From NCBI RefSeq assembly GCF_000423225.1, contig NZ_KE383991.1, forward strand, positions 1,126,217-1,190,216: a stretch of 64,000 nucleotides of DNA. The letters are read 5' to 3'. The first letter of the stretch is position 1. Each line of letters starts with the position of its first letter. This document shows, piece after piece, positions 1,699 to 9,776 of the stretch. This DNA is from Kaistia adipata DSM 17808 (lineage in GTDB: Bacteria > Pseudomonadota > Alphaproteobacteria > Rhizobiales > Kaistiaceae). The position numbers were made by a program, and so were the translations under genes. Under the pieces are notes generated by a model, which had not been told where the DNA came from, ran no database searches, and saw only the letters and a program-made list of their open reading frames with translations.

Positions 1699-1766
1699 GA
1701 AGCCCGCACGCTGGCGTTGCGCCGGCGCTCTTGGCCGCTTCGGGACGAAGCGACCAGGACAATGCG

Positions 1767-2867
1767 ATGCGTCGGATTTTCCTTGCACTCGCGAGCCTCG
1801 TGCTCCTCCTCGGTGACCGGCCGGCCCATGCCCAGGAGCCGAGCTCCGCGCAGACCTCCCCGCCCGCCGCCAAACGCGAGCTGGTGATCGGCACCAAGCA
1901 GGCGCCACCCTTCGCCATCAAGGATGCCAACGGCACCTGGACCGGCATCAGCATCGATCTCTGGCAGCGCATCGCCGAGAAGGAGGGCCTCCCCTACCGC
2001 CTGGTCGAGGAACCGACCGTCGACGCGCTGATCGACGGCACCGCCACCGGGCGCTATGACGCCGCCGTCGCCGCCCTGACCATCACCGGTCCGCGCGCGG
2101 AAGTCATCGATTTCAGCCAGCCCTTCTACCGCACCGGCCTCGGCATCGCTGTGTCGCTGACCGGGGCGTCGCGCTGGATGCTCATCGTCAACACCATCCT
2201 GTCGTTCGGCTTCCTGCAGGCGGTCGGCGCCCTGATCGGCCTCGCCCTCCTCGTCGGCGTCCTCATCTGGATCTTCGAGCGGCGGCGCAACGAGCATTTT
2301 GGTGGCGGCGCGCGCGGCATCGGCGCCTCGATCTGGTGGTCGGCCGAAGCGATGACGCAGGCAAGCACGGGCTTCCACGCGCCGATCACGCTGGCGGGCC
2401 GCACGCTCGCCGTGCTCTGGATGGCCGTCTCGATCATCGCCATCGCCGTGTTCACGGCCGGCGTCACCTCGGCCCTGACGACCAGGACGCTGCAGGGCCT
2501 GGTCAACTCACCGGACGATCTGGCGTCGGTCCGGGTCGGCGCGGTCGTCGATTCCTCGACCATCGACTACCTGGTCCACCAGCGTATCAACTATCGAGGC
2601 TTCGCGACGCCCGACGCGGGACTCAAGGCGCTGAAGGCGGGCGAGATCGACGCCTTCGTCTATGACAAGCCGCTGCTCGCCTGGGTCGTGATGCAGAACT
2701 ATTCATCGTCCATCGAGGTGCTGGACATGGTCTTCGATCCGCAGAACTACGGCATCGCCCTGCCCCTCGGCAGCCCCCTGCGCAAGGAGATCGACGTCTC
2801 CCTGCTGGAAGCCGTGCAGAGCGACTGGTGGAAGCAGACCCTGTTCCGCTATCTCGGCGAGCGATGA
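1767..2867 (+). CDS. Ionotropic glutamate receptor-like protein: periplasmic binding domain split by an ion-channel-like insert
   Basis: The ATG at 1767 follows AGGA by 7 bases and gives 366 residues with a signal peptide ending near AHAQ (residue 23). Residues 37-130 form the first lobe of a family 3 amino-acid-binding domain (LVIGTKQAPPFA, FSQPFYRTGLGIAVS). Residues 147-171 are a membrane helix, residues 188-206 a re-entrant-loop-like stretch (IWWSAEAMTQASTGFHAP), and residues 213-236 a second membrane helix ending in FTAGVTSAL, which resembles the SYTANLAAF motif of glutamate receptors. The second binding lobe follows. This order matches GluR0-like prokaryotic receptors, but the potassium filter TVGYG is not conserved, so ion selectivity or channel activity is uncertain. 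Confidence 0.75.
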   Translation: MRRIFLALASLVLLLGDRPAHAQEPSSAQTSPPAAKRELVIGTKQAPPFAIKDANGTWTGISIDLWQRIAEKEGLPYRLVEEPTVDALIDGTATGRYDAAVAALTITGPRAEVIDFSQPFYRTGLGIAVSLTGASRWMLIVNTILSFGFLQAVGALIGLALLVGVLIWIFERRRNEHFGGGARGIGASIWWSAEAMTQASTGFHAPITLAGRTLAVLWMAVSIIAIAVFTAGVTSALTTRTLQGLVNSPDDLASVRVGAVVDSSTIDYLVHQRINYRGFATPDAGLKALKAGEIDAFVYDKPLLAWVVMQNYSSSIEVLDMVFDPQNYGIALPLGSPLRKEIDVSLLEAVQSDWWKQTLFRYLGER

Positions 2868-3563: not shown

Positions 3564-4229
3564 TTACTTGGCCGCGAAGCAATAGATCAGGCCGGCGCCG
3601 CCCGTCCCCTGCAGCGCGGTCTGCGAACAGCCGCCGCGCGACAGGTGGGACGAATTCCACGATTTCGCCGCGTCGGACTCGTCGAGCCCCTTCCGGTCGT
3701 GATGGCCGACCATCGCCGCGCCTTCCTCGCCGCTCTTCGTCCAGTTGCCGCAGGTCTTGTCGTCGCCCGCCGGGAAGGCCGTGCCGTCCGGCTGGCTGCC
3801 GGTCAGGATGTCGTGTGTGTTCGGCTTGTCGCCGCGACCGTTGACCATGGCGCCCGTCTCGGTCAGGGCGGTCTCCTTGGTCAGATGGTTGCCGGCGCTG
3901 TGCAGTTCCGCCACGTCCTTGGCGACGACGACGCCCTTGGCGTTCTGCCACGGCCCTGGGCCGATGCGGTCGCGCGCATTGACGGCGGCGACGCCGCCCG
4001 CCTCCTGCGTCGAGAGATAGGCCCGCCAGGTCTTGCCGCCGGCGCCGGCCTTCTCGGCCAGCGTCAGGCACAGCTTGTCGGCGCCCTCCAGCCCGCCGAG
4101 ATCGGCGCCCTTGCCCGGCCCGGCGCTGGCGACGAAGAAGGTCATGGCACTTTCCTGGGCGCTCGCGGCGCCCCCGAGGCTCATCAACACGACCGACACG
4201 GCAAACGCTGTCGCTCCCACGATCCTCAT
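3564..4229 (-). CDS. Secreted lectin-like (endostatin-fold) protein
   Basis: The ATG at 4229 follows GGGAGAG by 7 bases and opens a 221-residue protein with a clear signal peptide (MRIVGATAFAVSVVLMSLGG, cleaved near ASAQE). The mature part resembles bacterial proteins with a C-type-lectin/endostatin-like fold: TFFVASAGPGKGADLGGLEG, KTWRAYLST, DRIGPGPW, HDILTGSQPDG, TCGNWTK and a C-terminal SRGGCSQTALQG with paired cysteines. It is probably periplasmic or extracellular. The ligand cannot be inferred from the sequence, and the gene appears monocistronic. Confidence 0.7.
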   Translation of the reverse strand: MRIVGATAFAVSVVLMSLGGAASAQESAMTFFVASAGPGKGADLGGLEGADKLCLTLAEKAGAGGKTWRAYLSTQEAGGVAAVNARDRIGPGPWQNAKGVVVAKDVAELHSAGNHLTKETALTETGAMVNGRGDKPNTHDILTGSQPDGTAFPAGDDKTCGNWTKSGEEGAAMVGHHDRKGLDESDAAKSWNSSHLSRGGCSQTALQGTGGAGLIYCFAAK

Positions 4230-4335
4230 CGTCACTCTCCCTCTGGCCAACCCCACGGAACACAATTCTTTCGCGCAACGCGCCGGATGCATTCCCGTTC
4301 CGATATAGGCGCCCAAAGGTCGCCGGCGAGGTGTC

Positions 4336-6327
4336 TCAGCCCGCACCGTTGCCGGAGAACTCGATCGCGACGCGCTTCCGGCGCGTGTAGCGGTCGAACG
4401 ACAGAAGGTCGGCTCCCGCTGCGGCGTCGGCCGGCAAATCCCGGAAATTGATCCAGCACGCGGCCGCGCGCAGGTGACGGCTCAACCGCTCGGCGCGCCC
4501 GAGGTCGGGCGTGAACAGGAAGACGGTGCCAGCGCCCGCCGCCAAGTCGACCCGACGGAGCGCCTCCGCCTCGTCGGCGAAACCGGCCAGCAGGACGACG
4601 CCCGGACAGTCCGCCTCGAACCACGCCGTCCCGCCGGCGTCCTGCTCCAGGATCGTCGGCGCCAGGAACGCTCCAGACGGCAAGGCCGCCACGCGGCTGC
4701 CCCCCGCCAGCAGGCGAGCGCCGCCGGCAAGGGCCGCATCGACGGCGGCAAGGGCCACTTCCGGATGCTGCGCCGCCCCCATCGCGCCGTGCTCGGTACG
4801 CGCATCGAGCGGGTCGCCCGTCACCAGTCGCCCGGTCGCCGCCAGCAATCGTTCGACGAAGGCCGCCTTCGCGCCCTGCTGCACGAGCACCCGGCACGGC
4901 CCGCCAAACCGGGCTGCCCCGGCGCGGAACGCCACTTCGAGCGTCATCGCCACGGCGATGTCGGGATCGGCGCCGTCGAACACGACCAGCGTGGCGCCGC
5001 CCTCCCCGTTACAGCCTGCCGCCATCTGGTCGATGCCCGGATGCTCGGCCAGAGCACGGCCGAGCTCTTCCGCGCCATGCAGGTGATTGACGGCGCCGGC
5101 CGGCAGCCCGGCTCCCTCGAGGATGGCGGCGAGCCTTGCCAGCACGAGCGGCGCATCCCCTGACGACTGCAGGATCAGCGCATTGCCCGCCGCAAGCGCC
5201 GGCGCGGCCCGAAGCGCGGCGGCGTAGAGCGGCCGGGATCCCGCACCGAGCATCGCGACAATGCCGGCCGGCTCGCGCCGGATCGTTCCCAGTCGACCTA
5301 GGCCCAGTTCGAGCGCGTCGTCGGCACGCGGGACCTCCGCGAGCGCGGCACAACGGGCAAAGCAGTCCGCCGCGATGGCGACGTCGGCCAGCGTGTAGCG
5401 GATCGGCCGCCCCGTCTCGGCGGCTTCAAGATGCGCGATCGCCTGGTCCTGCGCGCGCAGTTGGTCCGCCACGCGACGGAGCACGCGGCCGCGCTCTGCG
5501 CCGTCCAGAGCGGCCCATGCGGCCTGTCCGCGCCGGGCGGCGGCGATTGCCGCCTCGAGATCGTCCGGCGTCGCCAGCTCGATCTCCGCCAGCACCTCTC
5601 CGGTCGCCGGATTGTTCGCCCGGATCCGTACGCGTCCGCCGCCGAGGACGGCGCGGCCGGCAATGTGCTGCCCGGAGACTTTGTCGCCGCCGTCCGGCCT
5701 GGCCCTGCCATCCTCAGGCGCCCGAGCCCGGATGACGGCCAGTTCGGCATCGACCAGCGCCGTGGCGATGGCGCGGGCGCCGGAGCCCTCCTGCTCGCCC
5801 TCGGCGACGAGGGTCGCGCGCAGCCAGAGACCATCGATGATGGACGCGATCGTCACCGCCAGATGTTCCGCGTCGCGCGCCGGCACCATCTGCCGCAAGG
5901 CGTGGCGCAGGTTCGACAGCATGCGCTTCTGGTAGACGTTCTGCACCCGGCGGAACCGGGCCGAATGGATCACCTGCCCCCAGAAGGCCAGCCAGACGCT
6001 CGCCGTGCGCCGGTCGAACTCCTCCGGCGCCAGGTTGGCGTCGATGACCGCCTGGACACGGGCGCGCGGCGAATGGGCCTCGACGAGCCGCTGCGAGACG
6101 AGCCGGCTGATGCGCCCCGCCATATGGCGCAAAGTCGCCTCGAGCAGGCCCTCCTTGTCGCCGAAATAATGCGCCACCAGGCCGGGCGACACGCCAGCGC
6201 GCCGGCCGATATCCATGAGCGTGCAGGCGGCGAAGCCGACATCGGCGAGCGATTCGATCGTCGCTTCGATCAGTTGGAGCCGACGCGCATCCTCGCCGTC
6301 CCCACGGACGGAGCCCGTCCCAGCCAT
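4336..6327 (-). CDS. BetI-type TetR repressor fused to a catalytically dead BetB-like aldehyde dehydrogenase domain
   Basis: One uninterrupted 663-residue frame begins at ATG 6327 (AAGGGGA 5 bases upstream). Residues 16-200 are a BetI-like TetR repressor (helix-turn-helix TLMDIGRRAGVSPGLVAHYF). Residues 230-655 align with betaine aldehyde dehydrogenase (NNPATGEVLAEIELATPDD, RAAPALAAGNALILQSSGD, DRYTRRKRVAIEF). The usual active site is gone: the WNYP asparagine region reads GSRP (363-366), the ELGGK glutamate aligns with Asn440, the GQVC cysteine region reads GAARF (470-474), and the GGYKQSG segment near residue 635 is deleted. It is divergent from choXWV across an intergenic region with two palindromes. 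I infer a choline/betaine-aldehyde-responsive repressor using the dead enzyme domain as a second sensor or a scaffold. Confidence 0.85.
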   Translation of the reverse strand: MAGTGSVRGDGEDARRLQLIEATIESLADVGFAACTLMDIGRRAGVSPGLVAHYFGDKEGLLEATLRHMAGRISRLVSQRLVEAHSPRARVQAVIDANLAPEEFDRRTASVWLAFWGQVIHSARFRRVQNVYQKRMLSNLRHALRQMVPARDAEHLAVTIASIIDGLWLRATLVAEGEQEGSGARAIATALVDAELAVIRARAPEDGRARPDGGDKVSGQHIAGRAVLGGGRVRIRANNPATGEVLAEIELATPDDLEAAIAAARRGQAAWAALDGAERGRVLRRVADQLRAQDQAIAHLEAAETGRPIRYTLADVAIAADCFARCAALAEVPRADDALELGLGRLGTIRREPAGIVAMLGAGSRPLYAAALRAAPALAAGNALILQSSGDAPLVLARLAAILEGAGLPAGAVNHLHGAEELGRALAEHPGIDQMAAGCNGEGGATLVVFDGADPDIAVAMTLEVAFRAGAARFGGPCRVLVQQGAKAAFVERLLAATGRLVTGDPLDARTEHGAMGAAQHPEVALAAVDAALAGGARLLAGGSRVAALPSGAFLAPTILEQDAGGTAWFEADCPGVVLLAGFADEAEALRRVDLAAGAGTVFLFTPDLGRAERLSRHLRAAACWINFRDLPADAAAGADLLSFDRYTRRKRVAIEFSGNGAG

Positions 6328-6370
6328 GAAATCCCCTTCCGCCTCAAGCCCGTCTCGTCATGTACCGCGA

Positions 6371-6386
6371 TTGAACGGTCGTTCAA
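6371..6386. promoter_or_regulatory. Palindromic operator 1, probable BetI-type site
   Basis: TTGAACGGTCGTTCAA is a perfect inverted repeat of 7-base arms around GT, 44 bases upstream of the start of the TetR/pseudo-dehydrogenase fusion. Its position and similarity to site 2 suggest repressor binding and autoregulation. Confidence 0.65.
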
Positions 6387-6479
6387 AGCCCGAGGCGTCT
6401 GCATCATTATCGCATCCCGCAGCCGTCTCATCCTGATCAATTCATCATAAAAATCGCATGTTTCGGCCATTCAAAAGCA

Positions 6480-6495
6480 TTGAACAGTCATTCAA
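6480..6495. promoter_or_regulatory. Palindromic operator 2, probable BetI-type site
   Basis: TTGAACAGTCATTCAA has the same TTGAA-N6-TTCAA layout as the site at 6371-6386, with centres 109 bases apart. It lies about 180 bases before the choX start and probably controls the choline transporter. It abuts a further small palindrome, ATTCAATTGAAT. Confidence 0.6.
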
Positions 6496-6676
6496 TTGAA
6501 TTCAGACAGCACTCATCGCCACTCCGGGGACATCGATAAAATCAAGTGCGATGGACACATCGCCACGGGGACTATCCTTCGACGAGCGTTTAGGACGCTT
6601 CATCGCCGCCATCCCTGCGCTATGCTTGCGCAATTCGACGATCGCCTGGCCACGCCGCCTTTTGGAGAAGTACAGA

Positions 6677-7627
6677 ATGCTCAGTTCGATGTTTGCGAAG
6701 TCCCTGGCGACTGCGACCTGCCTGCTCGCGCTGGCCGGGACAGCATCGGCGGCCGAGCCCGCCGCCTGCAAGACCGTTCGCTTCTCCGACGTCGGCTGGA
6801 CCGACATCTCGGCGACGACCGGCCTCACCTCGCGCATCCTGACCGGCCTCGGCTACGAGCCGAAGCTGCAGGTGCTGTCGGTGCCGGTCACCTACGCCTC
6901 GCTGAAGAACAAGGACATCGACGTCTTCCTCGGCAACTGGCTGCCCTCGATGGCCGCCGACCTGCAGCCCTACCAGGACGACGGCTCGGTCGAAGTGGTC
7001 GGCGTCAATCTCGAAGGCGCGAAATATACGCTCGCCGTGCCGAGCTATCTGTTCGACGAGGGCCTGAAGACCTTCGCCGACATCGCCAAGTTCAAGGACA
7101 AGCTCGACGGCAAACTCTACGGCATCGAGCCCGGCAATGACGGCAACCGGCTGATCCTCGACATGATCAAGGCCGACAAGTTCGGCCTCGGCTCGTTCGA
7201 GCTGGTCGAGTCGAGCGAGCAGGGCATGCTGGCCCAGGTCGATCGCGCCGGCCGCAAGAAGGACGCGATCGTCTTCCTCGGCTGGGCGCCGCACCCGATG
7301 AACGAGAAGTTCGCCATGCAGTATCTCGACGGCGGCGACGAGGTGTTCGGCCCCAATTTCGGTGGCGCGACGGTTTCGACCAGCGTTCGCAAGGGTTATC
7401 TCGAGGAGTGCCCGAATGTCGGCGCGCTGCTCAAGAACATGAAGTTCACCCTGCCGATCGAGGGCCAGGTGATGGCGAGCATCCTCGACGACGGCAAGGA
7501 GCCGGTCGCCGCTGCCGAGGCCTGGCTGAAGGCCAACCCCGACCAGGTCGACACCTGGCTCGCCGGCGTCACCACGATCGACGGCCAGCCGGGCGCTGCC
7601 GCCGTGAAGCAGAGCCTCGGCCTGTGA
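6677..7627 (+). CDS. choX: Choline ABC transporter, periplasmic choline-binding protein
   Basis: The ATG at 6677 has GGAG 9 bases upstream and starts a 316-residue protein with signal peptide MLSSMFAKSLATATCLLALA and cleavage near TASAAE. It belongs to the OpuAC/ChoX family of quaternary-amine-binding proteins. Aromatic box segments are visible: FSDVGWTDISATT, DVFLGNWLPSM and VFLGWAPHPMN. It should deliver choline to the ChoW/ChoV importer downstream. The in-frame extension to 6551 is rejected because it would bury the signal peptide. Confidence 0.9.
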   Translation: MLSSMFAKSLATATCLLALAGTASAAEPAACKTVRFSDVGWTDISATTGLTSRILTGLGYEPKLQVLSVPVTYASLKNKDIDVFLGNWLPSMAADLQPYQDDGSVEVVGVNLEGAKYTLAVPSYLFDEGLKTFADIAKFKDKLDGKLYGIEPGNDGNRLILDMIKADKFGLGSFELVESSEQGMLAQVDRAGRKKDAIVFLGWAPHPMNEKFAMQYLDGGDEVFGPNFGGATVSTSVRKGYLEECPNVGALLKNMKFTLPIEGQVMASILDDGKEPVAAAEAWLKANPDQVDTWLAGVTTIDGQPGAAAVKQSLGL

Positions 7628-7743: not shown

Positions 7744-8595
7744 ATGTATGACTGGCTGACCGAGCACAAGATCCCGCTCGGACCCTGGATCAAGAGCTTC
7801 GTCGACTTCCTGAACCAGCACCTGCAGTGGCTGTTCGACGGAATCTCGCTCGTCCTCGGCACGCTCATCGAGGGGCTGACCGGCCTTCTGCTTGCCACGC
7901 CGCCGCTGCTCCTGACCGCGCTGTTCGCCGCCCTCGCCTACTTCCTGCACCGATCGGTCAAGCTGGCGGCCTTCACCTTCGTCGCCTTCCTGGTCGTCAT
8001 CAATCTCGGCTACTGGCAGCCGACCATCGAGACGCTGTCGCTGGTGATCTGGGCGACGCTGGTCTGCGTCGCGGTCGGCGTGCCGCTCGGCATCGCCGCG
8101 GCGCATCGGCCCTGGCTCTATGCCGGCATTCGGCCGATCCTCGACCTGATGCAGACCATCCCGACCTTCGTCTACCTGATCCCGACCCTTGTGCTGTTCG
8201 GCCTCGGCGTCGTGCCGGGCCTGATCTCGACCGTCATCTTCGCGCTGCCCGCGCCGATCCGCCTGACCCATCTCGGCATCACCTCGGTGCCGACGCAGCT
8301 GCGCGAGGCGGGCGAGGCCTTCGGCGCGACGAAGCGGCAGCTGCTCTACAAAGTGGAGCTGCCGCATGCGATGCCGACCATCATGGCCGGCATCACCCAG
8401 TGCATCATGCTGTCGCTGTCGATGGTGGTGATCGCGGCGCTGGTCGGCGCCGACGGGCTGGGCAAGCCGGTCGTCCGGGCGCTGAACTCGGTCAATATCG
8501 GCATGGGCTTCGAGGCCGGCGCGGCAATCGTGCTGCTCGCCATCGTGCTCGACCGGGTGTGCAAGCGCCCCGAACGCAAGGCCGGAGGACGCTGA
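7744..8595 (+). CDS. choW: Choline ABC transporter permease
   Basis: This 283-residue inner-membrane protein has about six to seven hydrophobic segments and the ProW/OpuAB signature. The cytoplasmic coupling loop reads REAGEAFGATKRQLLYKVELP. The N-terminal segment (YDWLTEHKIPLGPWIKSFVDFL) is typical of ChoW. It forms the channel through which choline from ChoX is imported, powered by ChoV, whose start lies 2 bases after its stop codon. Confidence 0.9.
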   Translation: MYDWLTEHKIPLGPWIKSFVDFLNQHLQWLFDGISLVLGTLIEGLTGLLLATPPLLLTALFAALAYFLHRSVKLAAFTFVAFLVVINLGYWQPTIETLSLVIWATLVCVAVGVPLGIAAAHRPWLYAGIRPILDLMQTIPTFVYLIPTLVLFGLGVVPGLISTVIFALPAPIRLTHLGITSVPTQLREAGEAFGATKRQLLYKVELPHAMPTIMAGITQCIMLSLSMVVIAALVGADGLGKPVVRALNSVNIGMGFEAGAAIVLLAIVLDRVCKRPERKAGGR

Positions 8596-8597
8596 GC

Positions 8598-9776
8598 ATG
8601 GTCGCCATCCAGTTCGACAAGGTCGACATCGTCTTCGGCGAGCGCCGCAAGCAGGCGCTCGCGCTGCTCGACCAGGGCAAGACCCGCGACGAGATCCTGG
8701 CCGAGACCGGCGCGGTGATCGGCGCCGCCGGCATCGATCTCGCCGTCGAGCGCGGTGAGATCTGCGTGCTGATGGGCCTTTCGGGCTCCGGCAAGTCGAC
8801 GGTGCTGCGCGCCGTCAACGGCCTCAACCCGGTCGCCCGTGGCGGCGTTTCGGTCCGCCACGATGGCGCGCCGGTCGAGGTCACGGACTGCGACGCCGAC
8901 CGATTGCGCGAAATCCGGATGCGTACGGTCTCGATGGTGTTCCAGCAGTTCGGCCTGCTGCCCTGGCGCACGGTGCGCGAGAATGTCGGCTTCGGGCTCG
9001 AGATCCGCGGCATGAAGGCGGCCGAGCGCAGGCGCATCGTCGACGAGAAGCTCGCCATGGTCGGGCTGGCGCAATGGGCCGACAAGCATGCGCACGAGCT
9101 TTCCGGCGGCATGCAGCAGCGCGTCGGGCTGGCGCGGGCGTTCGCGACCGACGCCGACATCCTGCTGATGGACGAGCCGTTCTCGGCGCTCGATCCCCTG
9201 ATCCGCGACAAGATGCAGGACGAGCTCCTGGAGCTGCAGCGGCGGATCCAGAAGACCATCCTCTTCGTCAGCCACGATCTCGACGAGGCGATGAAGATCG
9301 GCAACAAGATCGCCATCATGGAGGCCGGCCGCATCGTCCAGTGCGGTACGGCGGAAGACATCCTGCTCCGCCCGGCGACGCCCTATGTGGCGGAATTCGT
9401 CAAGCACACCAATCCCTTGAACGTGCTGCGCGGCCATTCCGTGATGACGCCCGCCTGTTCGGTCCGGCGCGACGACGGCACGGTGCTGCTCGATCGCGAC
9501 GGGCTGGTGCGCATGCGCGTCGACGCCGGCGACCGCCCGGTCGGCGTCGAAGTGAACGGCCGCGAGGGCAGCCTCGGCCGCGTCAACGGCAATGCCGGCG
9601 CCTTCGACACGCCCTGCGATATCATCGTGGCCCCGGTCGAGCTGAAGCTCGCCACCACGATCGCACTGAAGCGGAAGACCGACCATCCGATCATCTTCGT
9701 CGATGCGGAGGGCAAGCTGGCCGGCCTCTGCGGCGACGACGAGATCTATGGCAGCCTGCTCCGTCGCAGCGCCTAA
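8598..9776 (+). CDS. choV: Choline ABC transporter ATP-binding protein
   Basis: A GGAGG site about 9 bases before ATG 8598 sets the start, giving 392 residues. The ATPase core shows Walker A GLSGSGKST, signature LSGGMQQRVGLARA and Walker B ILLMDEPFSALDP, followed by VSHDLDEAMKIG. The N-terminal extension (KQALALLDQGKTRDEILAETG) is typical of ProV/OpuAA-type quaternary-amine importers. The C-terminal 110 residues resemble a regulatory CBS-like region. It completes the choXWV operon and converges on the M24 peptidase gene 3 bases away. Confidence 0.9.
   Translation: MVAIQFDKVDIVFGERRKQALALLDQGKTRDEILAETGAVIGAAGIDLAVERGEICVLMGLSGSGKSTVLRAVNGLNPVARGGVSVRHDGAPVEVTDCDADRLREIRMRTVSMVFQQFGLLPWRTVRENVGFGLEIRGMKAAERRRIVDEKLAMVGLAQWADKHAHELSGGMQQRVGLARAFATDADILLMDEPFSALDPLIRDKMQDELLELQRRIQKTILFVSHDLDEAMKIGNKIAIMEAGRIVQCGTAEDILLRPATPYVAEFVKHTNPLNVLRGHSVMTPACSVRRDDGTVLLDRDGLVRMRVDAGDRPVGVEVNGREGSLGRVNGNAGAFDTPCDIIVAPVELKLATTIALKRKTDHPIIFVDAEGKLAGLCGDDEIYGSLLRRSA

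Follow-up and report, generated by a model that had tools for sequence, protein, structure and literature searches.

Two described systems come close to the locus reported here. According to passages of PMC12442346, BetI2 of Ruegeria pomeroyi is a BetI-type, choline-responsive regulator encoded in a divergon, and its homologues are more often found clustered with transporters of choline, ChoXWV among them. The other system is trifunctional proline utilization A (PutA), for which passages of PMC5293562 describe an autogenous repressor joined to an oxidizing enzyme with an aldehyde dehydrogenase (ALDH)-type (P5CDH) domain. By title and abstract, we found no paper describing a BetI/TetR-ALDH fusion in the open-licence PubMed Central literature; in passages of PMC7824335 the word “fused” is used of other genes. 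Here we describe such a fusion, with a dead enzyme half, from Kaistia adipata DSM 17808. The window (the whole stretch analyzed) comprises 64,000 nucleotides, and the gene and its lost active-site parts are located in it as follows.

4336 to 6327, minus strand: fusion gene, BetI repressor plus dead BetB-type domain, 663 codons (frame, domain, and profile matches)
5740 to 6273, minus strand: BetI part, TetR_N (residues 19–64) and TetR_C_6 (residues 87–196) (Pfam)
4408 to 5670, minus strand: aldehyde dehydrogenase-derived part, about residues 220–640 (Pfam, sequence, and fold matches)
5236 to 5238, minus strand: Ser364 in the catalytic Asn column, GAWNYP to GAGSRP (alignment)
4999 to 5019, minus strand: residues 437–443, site of a 23-column deletion in which the NAD glycine motif, a helix, and the catalytic Glu are gone (alignment, models)
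4906 to 4908, minus strand: Phe474 in the catalytic Cys column, GEVCSNG to GAARF (alignment)
4405 to 4440, minus strand: approximate site of the deleted FGGxKxSG loop (alignment)

As originally predicted, one uninterrupted frame joins a BetI repressor to a domain derived from the aldehyde dehydrogenase BetB. It runs from 6327 to 4336 on the minus strand (the prediction had given no strand), and the plus strand across the same interval is interrupted by stops. Pfam finds TetR_N, TetR_C_6 (BetI), and Aldedh (as two stretches) only; the RHH and PRODH domains of PutA are absent. The helix-turn-helix stretch has the same residues as the intact K. defluvii fusion at 47 of 48 positions, and the ALDH-derived part agrees with the corresponding domain of that fusion at 178 of 441 aligned residues. 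With the BetI model TIGR03384 the protein scores 194.6 bits (cut-off 201.3), a cut-off exceeded by the related fusions L167 and L168 (209.3 and 206.5 bits), and with the BetI model NF001978 it scores 188.9 bits, over the cut-off of 118. The second half is best matched by models of betaine aldehyde dehydrogenase (BADH), yet the scores are far below cut-off (TIGR01804, BADH, 240.2 bits vs. 668.6; NF009725, BetB, 252.8 bits vs. 593).

Active-site columns were read from an alignment of the window protein with catalytically intact fusions. The proposed loss of catalytic residues held for Asn and Cys, whose columns contain Ser364 (in GSRP) and Phe474 (in GAARF), but not for a substitution of Glu by Asn440. 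The Glu column and the glycine motif LTGEVGTGK fall inside the 23-column gap, and Asn440 is better read as the edge of the deletion; even a by-eye alignment that pairs the next GG directly leaves Glu442 one position off the catalytic Glu. The region described as GGYKQSG is indeed deleted, the FGGxKxSG loop having lost 10 columns. Lys of the FKPAE motif is replaced by Gln, and the Trp next to the catalytic Asn is replaced in the window and lost in all four dead Kaistia-type fusions. The glycine motif and Glu segment are deleted in all four of these and in the dead Methylobacterium-type sequences inspected. Judged by Asn, Glu, Cys, the NAD motif, and the FGG loop, the domain is dead, and the predicted decay of the enzyme is therefore upheld.

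The structural model of the window protein has a mean pLDDT of 81.2 and is poor at residues 438–442, 472–475, and 622–663 (these last 42 residues have predicted pLDDT below 50). The model of an intact relative (mean pLDDT 78.2) includes a helix (442–453) and a strand (458–463) that are missing from the window model between strands 434–436 and 445–449. All 50 Foldseek matches listed are ALDH-fold enzymes, the best (6bjp) with a target TM of 0.76 and 34% identity, and the C-terminal part of the window protein is predicted to have the ALDH fold. The second half shares no defining feature with BetB except this fold.

The fusion gene and choXWV are divergent across a short intergenic region that holds two palindromes:

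6371 to 6386, no strand: operator-like palindrome TTGAACGGTCGTTCAA (pattern search)
6480 to 6495, no strand: operator-like palindrome TTGAACAGTCATTCAA (pattern search)
6551 to 7627, plus strand: choX, choline ABC transporter substrate-binding protein (TIGR03414, 474 bits, cut-off 379.05; the start is that of the listed open reading frame, the family match begins at residue 67, and the true start may be later)
7744 to 8595, plus strand: choW, choline ABC transporter permease (named by synteny with locus L052)
8598 to 9776, plus strand: choV, choline ABC transporter ATP-binding protein (named by synteny with L052; start set at an in-frame Met)

Directly downstream of the fusion, 3564–4346 (minus strand) encodes a 260-amino-acid protein with a DUF1554 match below cut-off. 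Elsewhere in the window, 1731–2867 (plus strand) encodes an SBP_bac_3 solute-binding protein with Lig_chan over cut-off, resembling an ionotropic-receptor-like bacterial channel. The window is GC-rich, and long open reading frames often lie antisense to real genes (e.g., 380–1972 on the minus strand opposite 389–1666).

The two 16-base palindromes mentioned in the original prediction thus lie beside the fusion and the choline genes, and nowhere else in the 4.84-Mb assembly does the 16-base pattern occur exactly. With up to two mismatches the pattern has 19 matches in the whole assembly (control 7), and the 18-base form has three in the window at this tolerance vs. 0.01 expected. When up to three mismatches were allowed in 38 intergenic regions, 33 had at least one site and 30 at least two; shuffled versions of the regions gave 0.77 and 0.00, respectively. 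No sites were found at this tolerance in the L175, L054, L166, L185, and L186 regions. A scan of 6300–6700 for sigma-70-type promoters found nothing. DNA looping between the operators by way of an ALDH tetramer was considered and is not favored: the spacing is 109–111 in Kaistia and about 90–234 elsewhere, with no common helical phase across groups, and two loci without any remnant (L162 and L163, see below) retain both operators.

An intact fusion, searched against 397 genomes of the order, gave, among the matches listed, at least 17 full-length, stop-free fusions. Loss of a stop codon, as put forward in the original prediction, may have made the fusion. The same query found at least five genomes with betI and betB in one frame and a single stop between them, but their BetI shares no more than about 37% identity with fused BetI, so these are no direct ancestor of the fusion. 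Six more fusions (three listed at full length and three from fetched loci) came from another survey, in which the Methylobacterium nodulans protein was the query. This search for TetR-ALDH architectures, a check suggested along with the original prediction, thus places BetI-BetB fusions in at least 23 of the 397 genomes. Further fusions occur in Aureimonas, Caulobacteraceae, and Gammaproteobacteria assemblies and on Methylobacterium and Komagataeibacter plasmids. The genus of the window also includes Kaistia granuli, K. terrae, and K. defluvii. Public annotation gives one half only (e.g., BetI for L052, 677 amino acids, and BetB for L053, about 677). The plasmid-encoded proteins WP_015934072.1 (M. 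nodulans, dead, named BetI) and WP_254058047.1 (Komagataeibacter saccharivorans, intact, named BetB) have the same two-domain plan, and the fusion is noted in neither record. A record titled Arthrobacter (L050, QDFQ01000005.1) carries a proteobacterial-looking intact fusion with betA and is perhaps mislabelled.

From 41 extracted rows, 36 were counted as fused loci, including the near-duplicates L045 and L046 as well as L169, which is cut at a contig end and has a frame starting inside BetI. Left out were L054 (Indioceanicola), which matches along the whole query yet as two frames split by a stop, the unfused L185 and L186, and L162 and L163. Catalytic Asn, Glu, and Cys are all kept in 24 of the 36. 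The 12 dead loci are four of Kaistia type (the window and related fusions with differing deletions in three other Kaistia genomes) and eight of Methylobacterium type. Gene order follows this division: betA lies directly downstream of 23 of the 24 intact fusions and of none of the dead ones. The exception is K. terrae (L172), with no betA within about 4.8 kb, and this fusion is a possible intermediate before domain death. The choXWV genes are adjacent to and divergent from 19 of the 24 intact fusions and adjoin three of the four dead Kaistia-type loci (the contig ends at the fourth). In seven of the eight dead Methylobacterium-type loci, choXWV is divergent from the fusion, and a second, intact betB and betA come after choXWV; in the eighth, L166, choXWV is missing at that place. 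L162 and L163, from the Methylobacterium-type genus, have the same gene order and both operators, with BetI alone (243 and 234 amino acids), and seem to have lost the remnant altogether.

The original prediction held that fusion and decay together produced this design. The comparison did not support this: most fused loci (24 of 36) are intact, and within the Kaistia type the dead fusions are closely related to intact ones, which places the fusion before the decay. In the BetI tree, the dead Kaistia trio forms one clade (SH-aLRT/UFBoot 93.8/87), placed weakly beside K. terrae (75.5/77), and the Methylobacterium-type group is separated from the rest at 100/100; in the choXWV tree, the separation of this Kaistia trio has 100/100 support. 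Because the two dead types sit on separate branches of the repressor tree, the enzyme half of an older, intact fusion would have died at least twice, provided that a dead domain does not revive. A tree from the ALDH part only joins the dead sequences together, but this grouping is ascribed to their long branches (in amino acid terms, 1.03 for the window and 0.34–0.59 for other dead sequences vs. 0.01–0.06 for intact Kaistia), and the tree was set aside as a guide to ancestry. The glycine motif is missing from all four Kaistia-type remnants, and three of them have Ser in place of Asn. This points to a death before the four lineages split and, thus, to most divergence of the remnant having come after death.

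Across 14 Kaistia genomes, BADH (TIGR01804) is over cut-off in three, exactly those with intact fusions, and betA (TIGR01810) in two of these three; in K. terrae (G012) no betA is over cut-off anywhere in the genome. Among the matches listed, the fusion is absent from seven of the 14. The dead-fusion genomes (G000, G003, G007, and G011) have neither BADH nor betA over the curated cut-off, although it should be noted that G007 is fragmented and 92% complete. Their best matches reach at most 480 bits for BADH (vs. 668.6) and 639 bits for betA (vs. 732.1); through such BetA- and BetB-like proteins (up to 638 and 480 bits, respectively, in the genome of the window) choline may still be oxidized in a different way. 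ChoX (TIGR03414) is over cut-off in six genomes, all six with complete fusions and not the fragmented G007. Imported choline may still be of use, perhaps for phosphatidylcholine: all 14 genomes have a phosphatidylcholine-synthase-like gene (NF045884, 221–246 bits), under the cut-off of 350 in every case, and a PF01066 search revealed no phosphatidylcholine synthase.

With a probability of roughly 60%, we interpret the window protein as an autonomous BetI-type, choline-responsive repressor of choXWV, in which the former BetB half is kept as a scaffold rather than as an enzyme or sensor. The ancestor would have been a two-function BetI-BetB fusion, PutA-like in plan, encoded with betA and divergent from choXWV, and the C-terminal half would descend from a working betaine aldehyde dehydrogenase. 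The Kaistia lineage would then have lost betA and BetB function, with deletion of the glycine motif, Glu segment, and FGG loop and drift of the remaining active-site residues, while choline import persisted. The repressor, presumably with choline as its ligand, would set choline uptake by acting on the pair of TTGAAC-type operators in the region that separates its gene from choXWV, and most likely it also represses its own gene. Having been built around the remnant, it would have to retain it, most likely for folding or assembly.

It is rather unlikely that the remnant is instead a pure relic, with BetI working alone and the rest being neutral baggage yet to be lost. Evidence on both sides comes from omega, obtained with purpose-written pairwise NG86 and MG94-F3x4 codon-model fits. 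The MG94-F3x4 values for the dead Kaistia-type domain are 0.271 (four sequences), 0.270 (other topology), and 0.229 (three sequences), and two dead Methylobacterium-type trios give 0.151 and 0.152, vs. 0.045 (Kaistia) and 0.089 (across genera) for the intact domain. For BetI they are 0.119 in dead Kaistia, 0.076 and 0.085 in intact fusions, and 0.035 and 0.036 in the Methylobacterium type. As expected of a relic, the Kaistia-type remnant therefore changes faster than its BetI (0.27 vs. 0.12). However, omega = 1 is rejected in every MG94-F3x4 fit, with likelihood ratios of 186–246 in the three dead groups, for which omega is far below 1. NG86 values for dead Kaistia pairs are higher than those of the codon model (0.39–0.58), and close pairs in which both members are dead give 0.21–0.32 with bootstrap limits below 0.46; intact values are 0.05–0.07 within Kaistia and 0.15–0.27 between genera. 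The dead domain evolves faster than the intact one, yet it is constrained, and constraint combined with loss of all active-site parts fits a scaffold role. Deletions (nine in the window remnant) speak for a relic, as do L162 and L163, which keep BetI and the operators and so indicate that the remnant can be dispensable. In the other direction, the four Kaistia-type lineages retain the frame to near the original end despite three to nine indels each. Stop-codon retention was set aside as proof of selection, given that 30–54 of 400 neutral simulations at 0.38 substitutions per site were still stop-free at such base composition. The window remnant has diverged further than the other three, and its last 42 residues are poorly predicted, so it may be decaying here.

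The suggestion in the original prediction that the dead fold senses NAD or betaine aldehyde fared poorly, and we consider a second sensor of betaine aldehyde, betaine, or a nucleotide improbable. An enzyme fold under purifying selection is a plausible pocket, and passages of PMC5293562 describe PutA (RHH plus ALDH-type domains) as sensing substrate and cofactors. Nevertheless, the glycine motif and Glu segment are deleted in all four dead Kaistia-type fusions and in the dead Methylobacterium-type sequences inspected, Asn, Cys, and Lys are replaced in the window, the Trp beside the Asn is lost in the four dead Kaistia-type fusions, and the dead Kaistia-type genomes are without an over-cut-off BetA to make the aldehyde. 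An assembly artefact, or two genes misread as one, is very improbable. The original prediction had itself raised this concern, in case homologues proved to be separate intact genes and the fusion a sequencing error unique to this assembly. We found no evidence for it; the frame is without a stop, three other Kaistia genomes have related dead fusions whose deletions differ, and the architecture is conserved across species and recurs in many independent assemblies, complete plasmid records included.

In sequence and fold, the C-terminal part best matches BetB structures (6bjp, 6wsa, 8u9b), from which it differs in being without Asn, Glu, Cys, the NAD motif, and the FGG loop and in scoring 240 bits vs. 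668.6. As for BetI2, passages of PMC12442346 report a flank common to the R. pomeroyi boxes, AAACTTGAAC; the TTGAAC half-site of the window operators is found within it. Those boxes overlap, whereas the window sites are 109 bases apart, and the passages mention no fused domain, unlike that of the window protein. More tentatively, we suggest a recurrent route from enzyme to regulator: whenever the pathway disappears or another takes its place, the enzyme half of an undescribed family of two-function BetI-BetB proteins dies, and selection then retains it in the choline repressor as a new sensor or as a module for assembly. If so, close relatives show the stages before and after enzyme death (an intact fusion, loss of betA, deletion of the active site, and loss of the domain), and the reason dead enzyme domains persist in regulators becomes directly testable. 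A warning also follows, namely that BetI-BetB proteins get annotated by a single half. By analogy with PutA as described in passages of PMC5293562, intact BetI-BetB fusions would work similarly without being PutAs: PutA has an RHH rather than a TetR/BetI domain, has a PRODH domain, and is catalytically active, and the architectures are not homologous. The window protein differs further in that its enzyme half appears dead, although the catalytic residues are kept in 24 related fusions. On this reading, the BetI-BetB family would be a TetR-based counterpart of PutA, and its repressor-enzyme fusions, built on TetR, would join the small number of metabolic enzymes known to regulate themselves.
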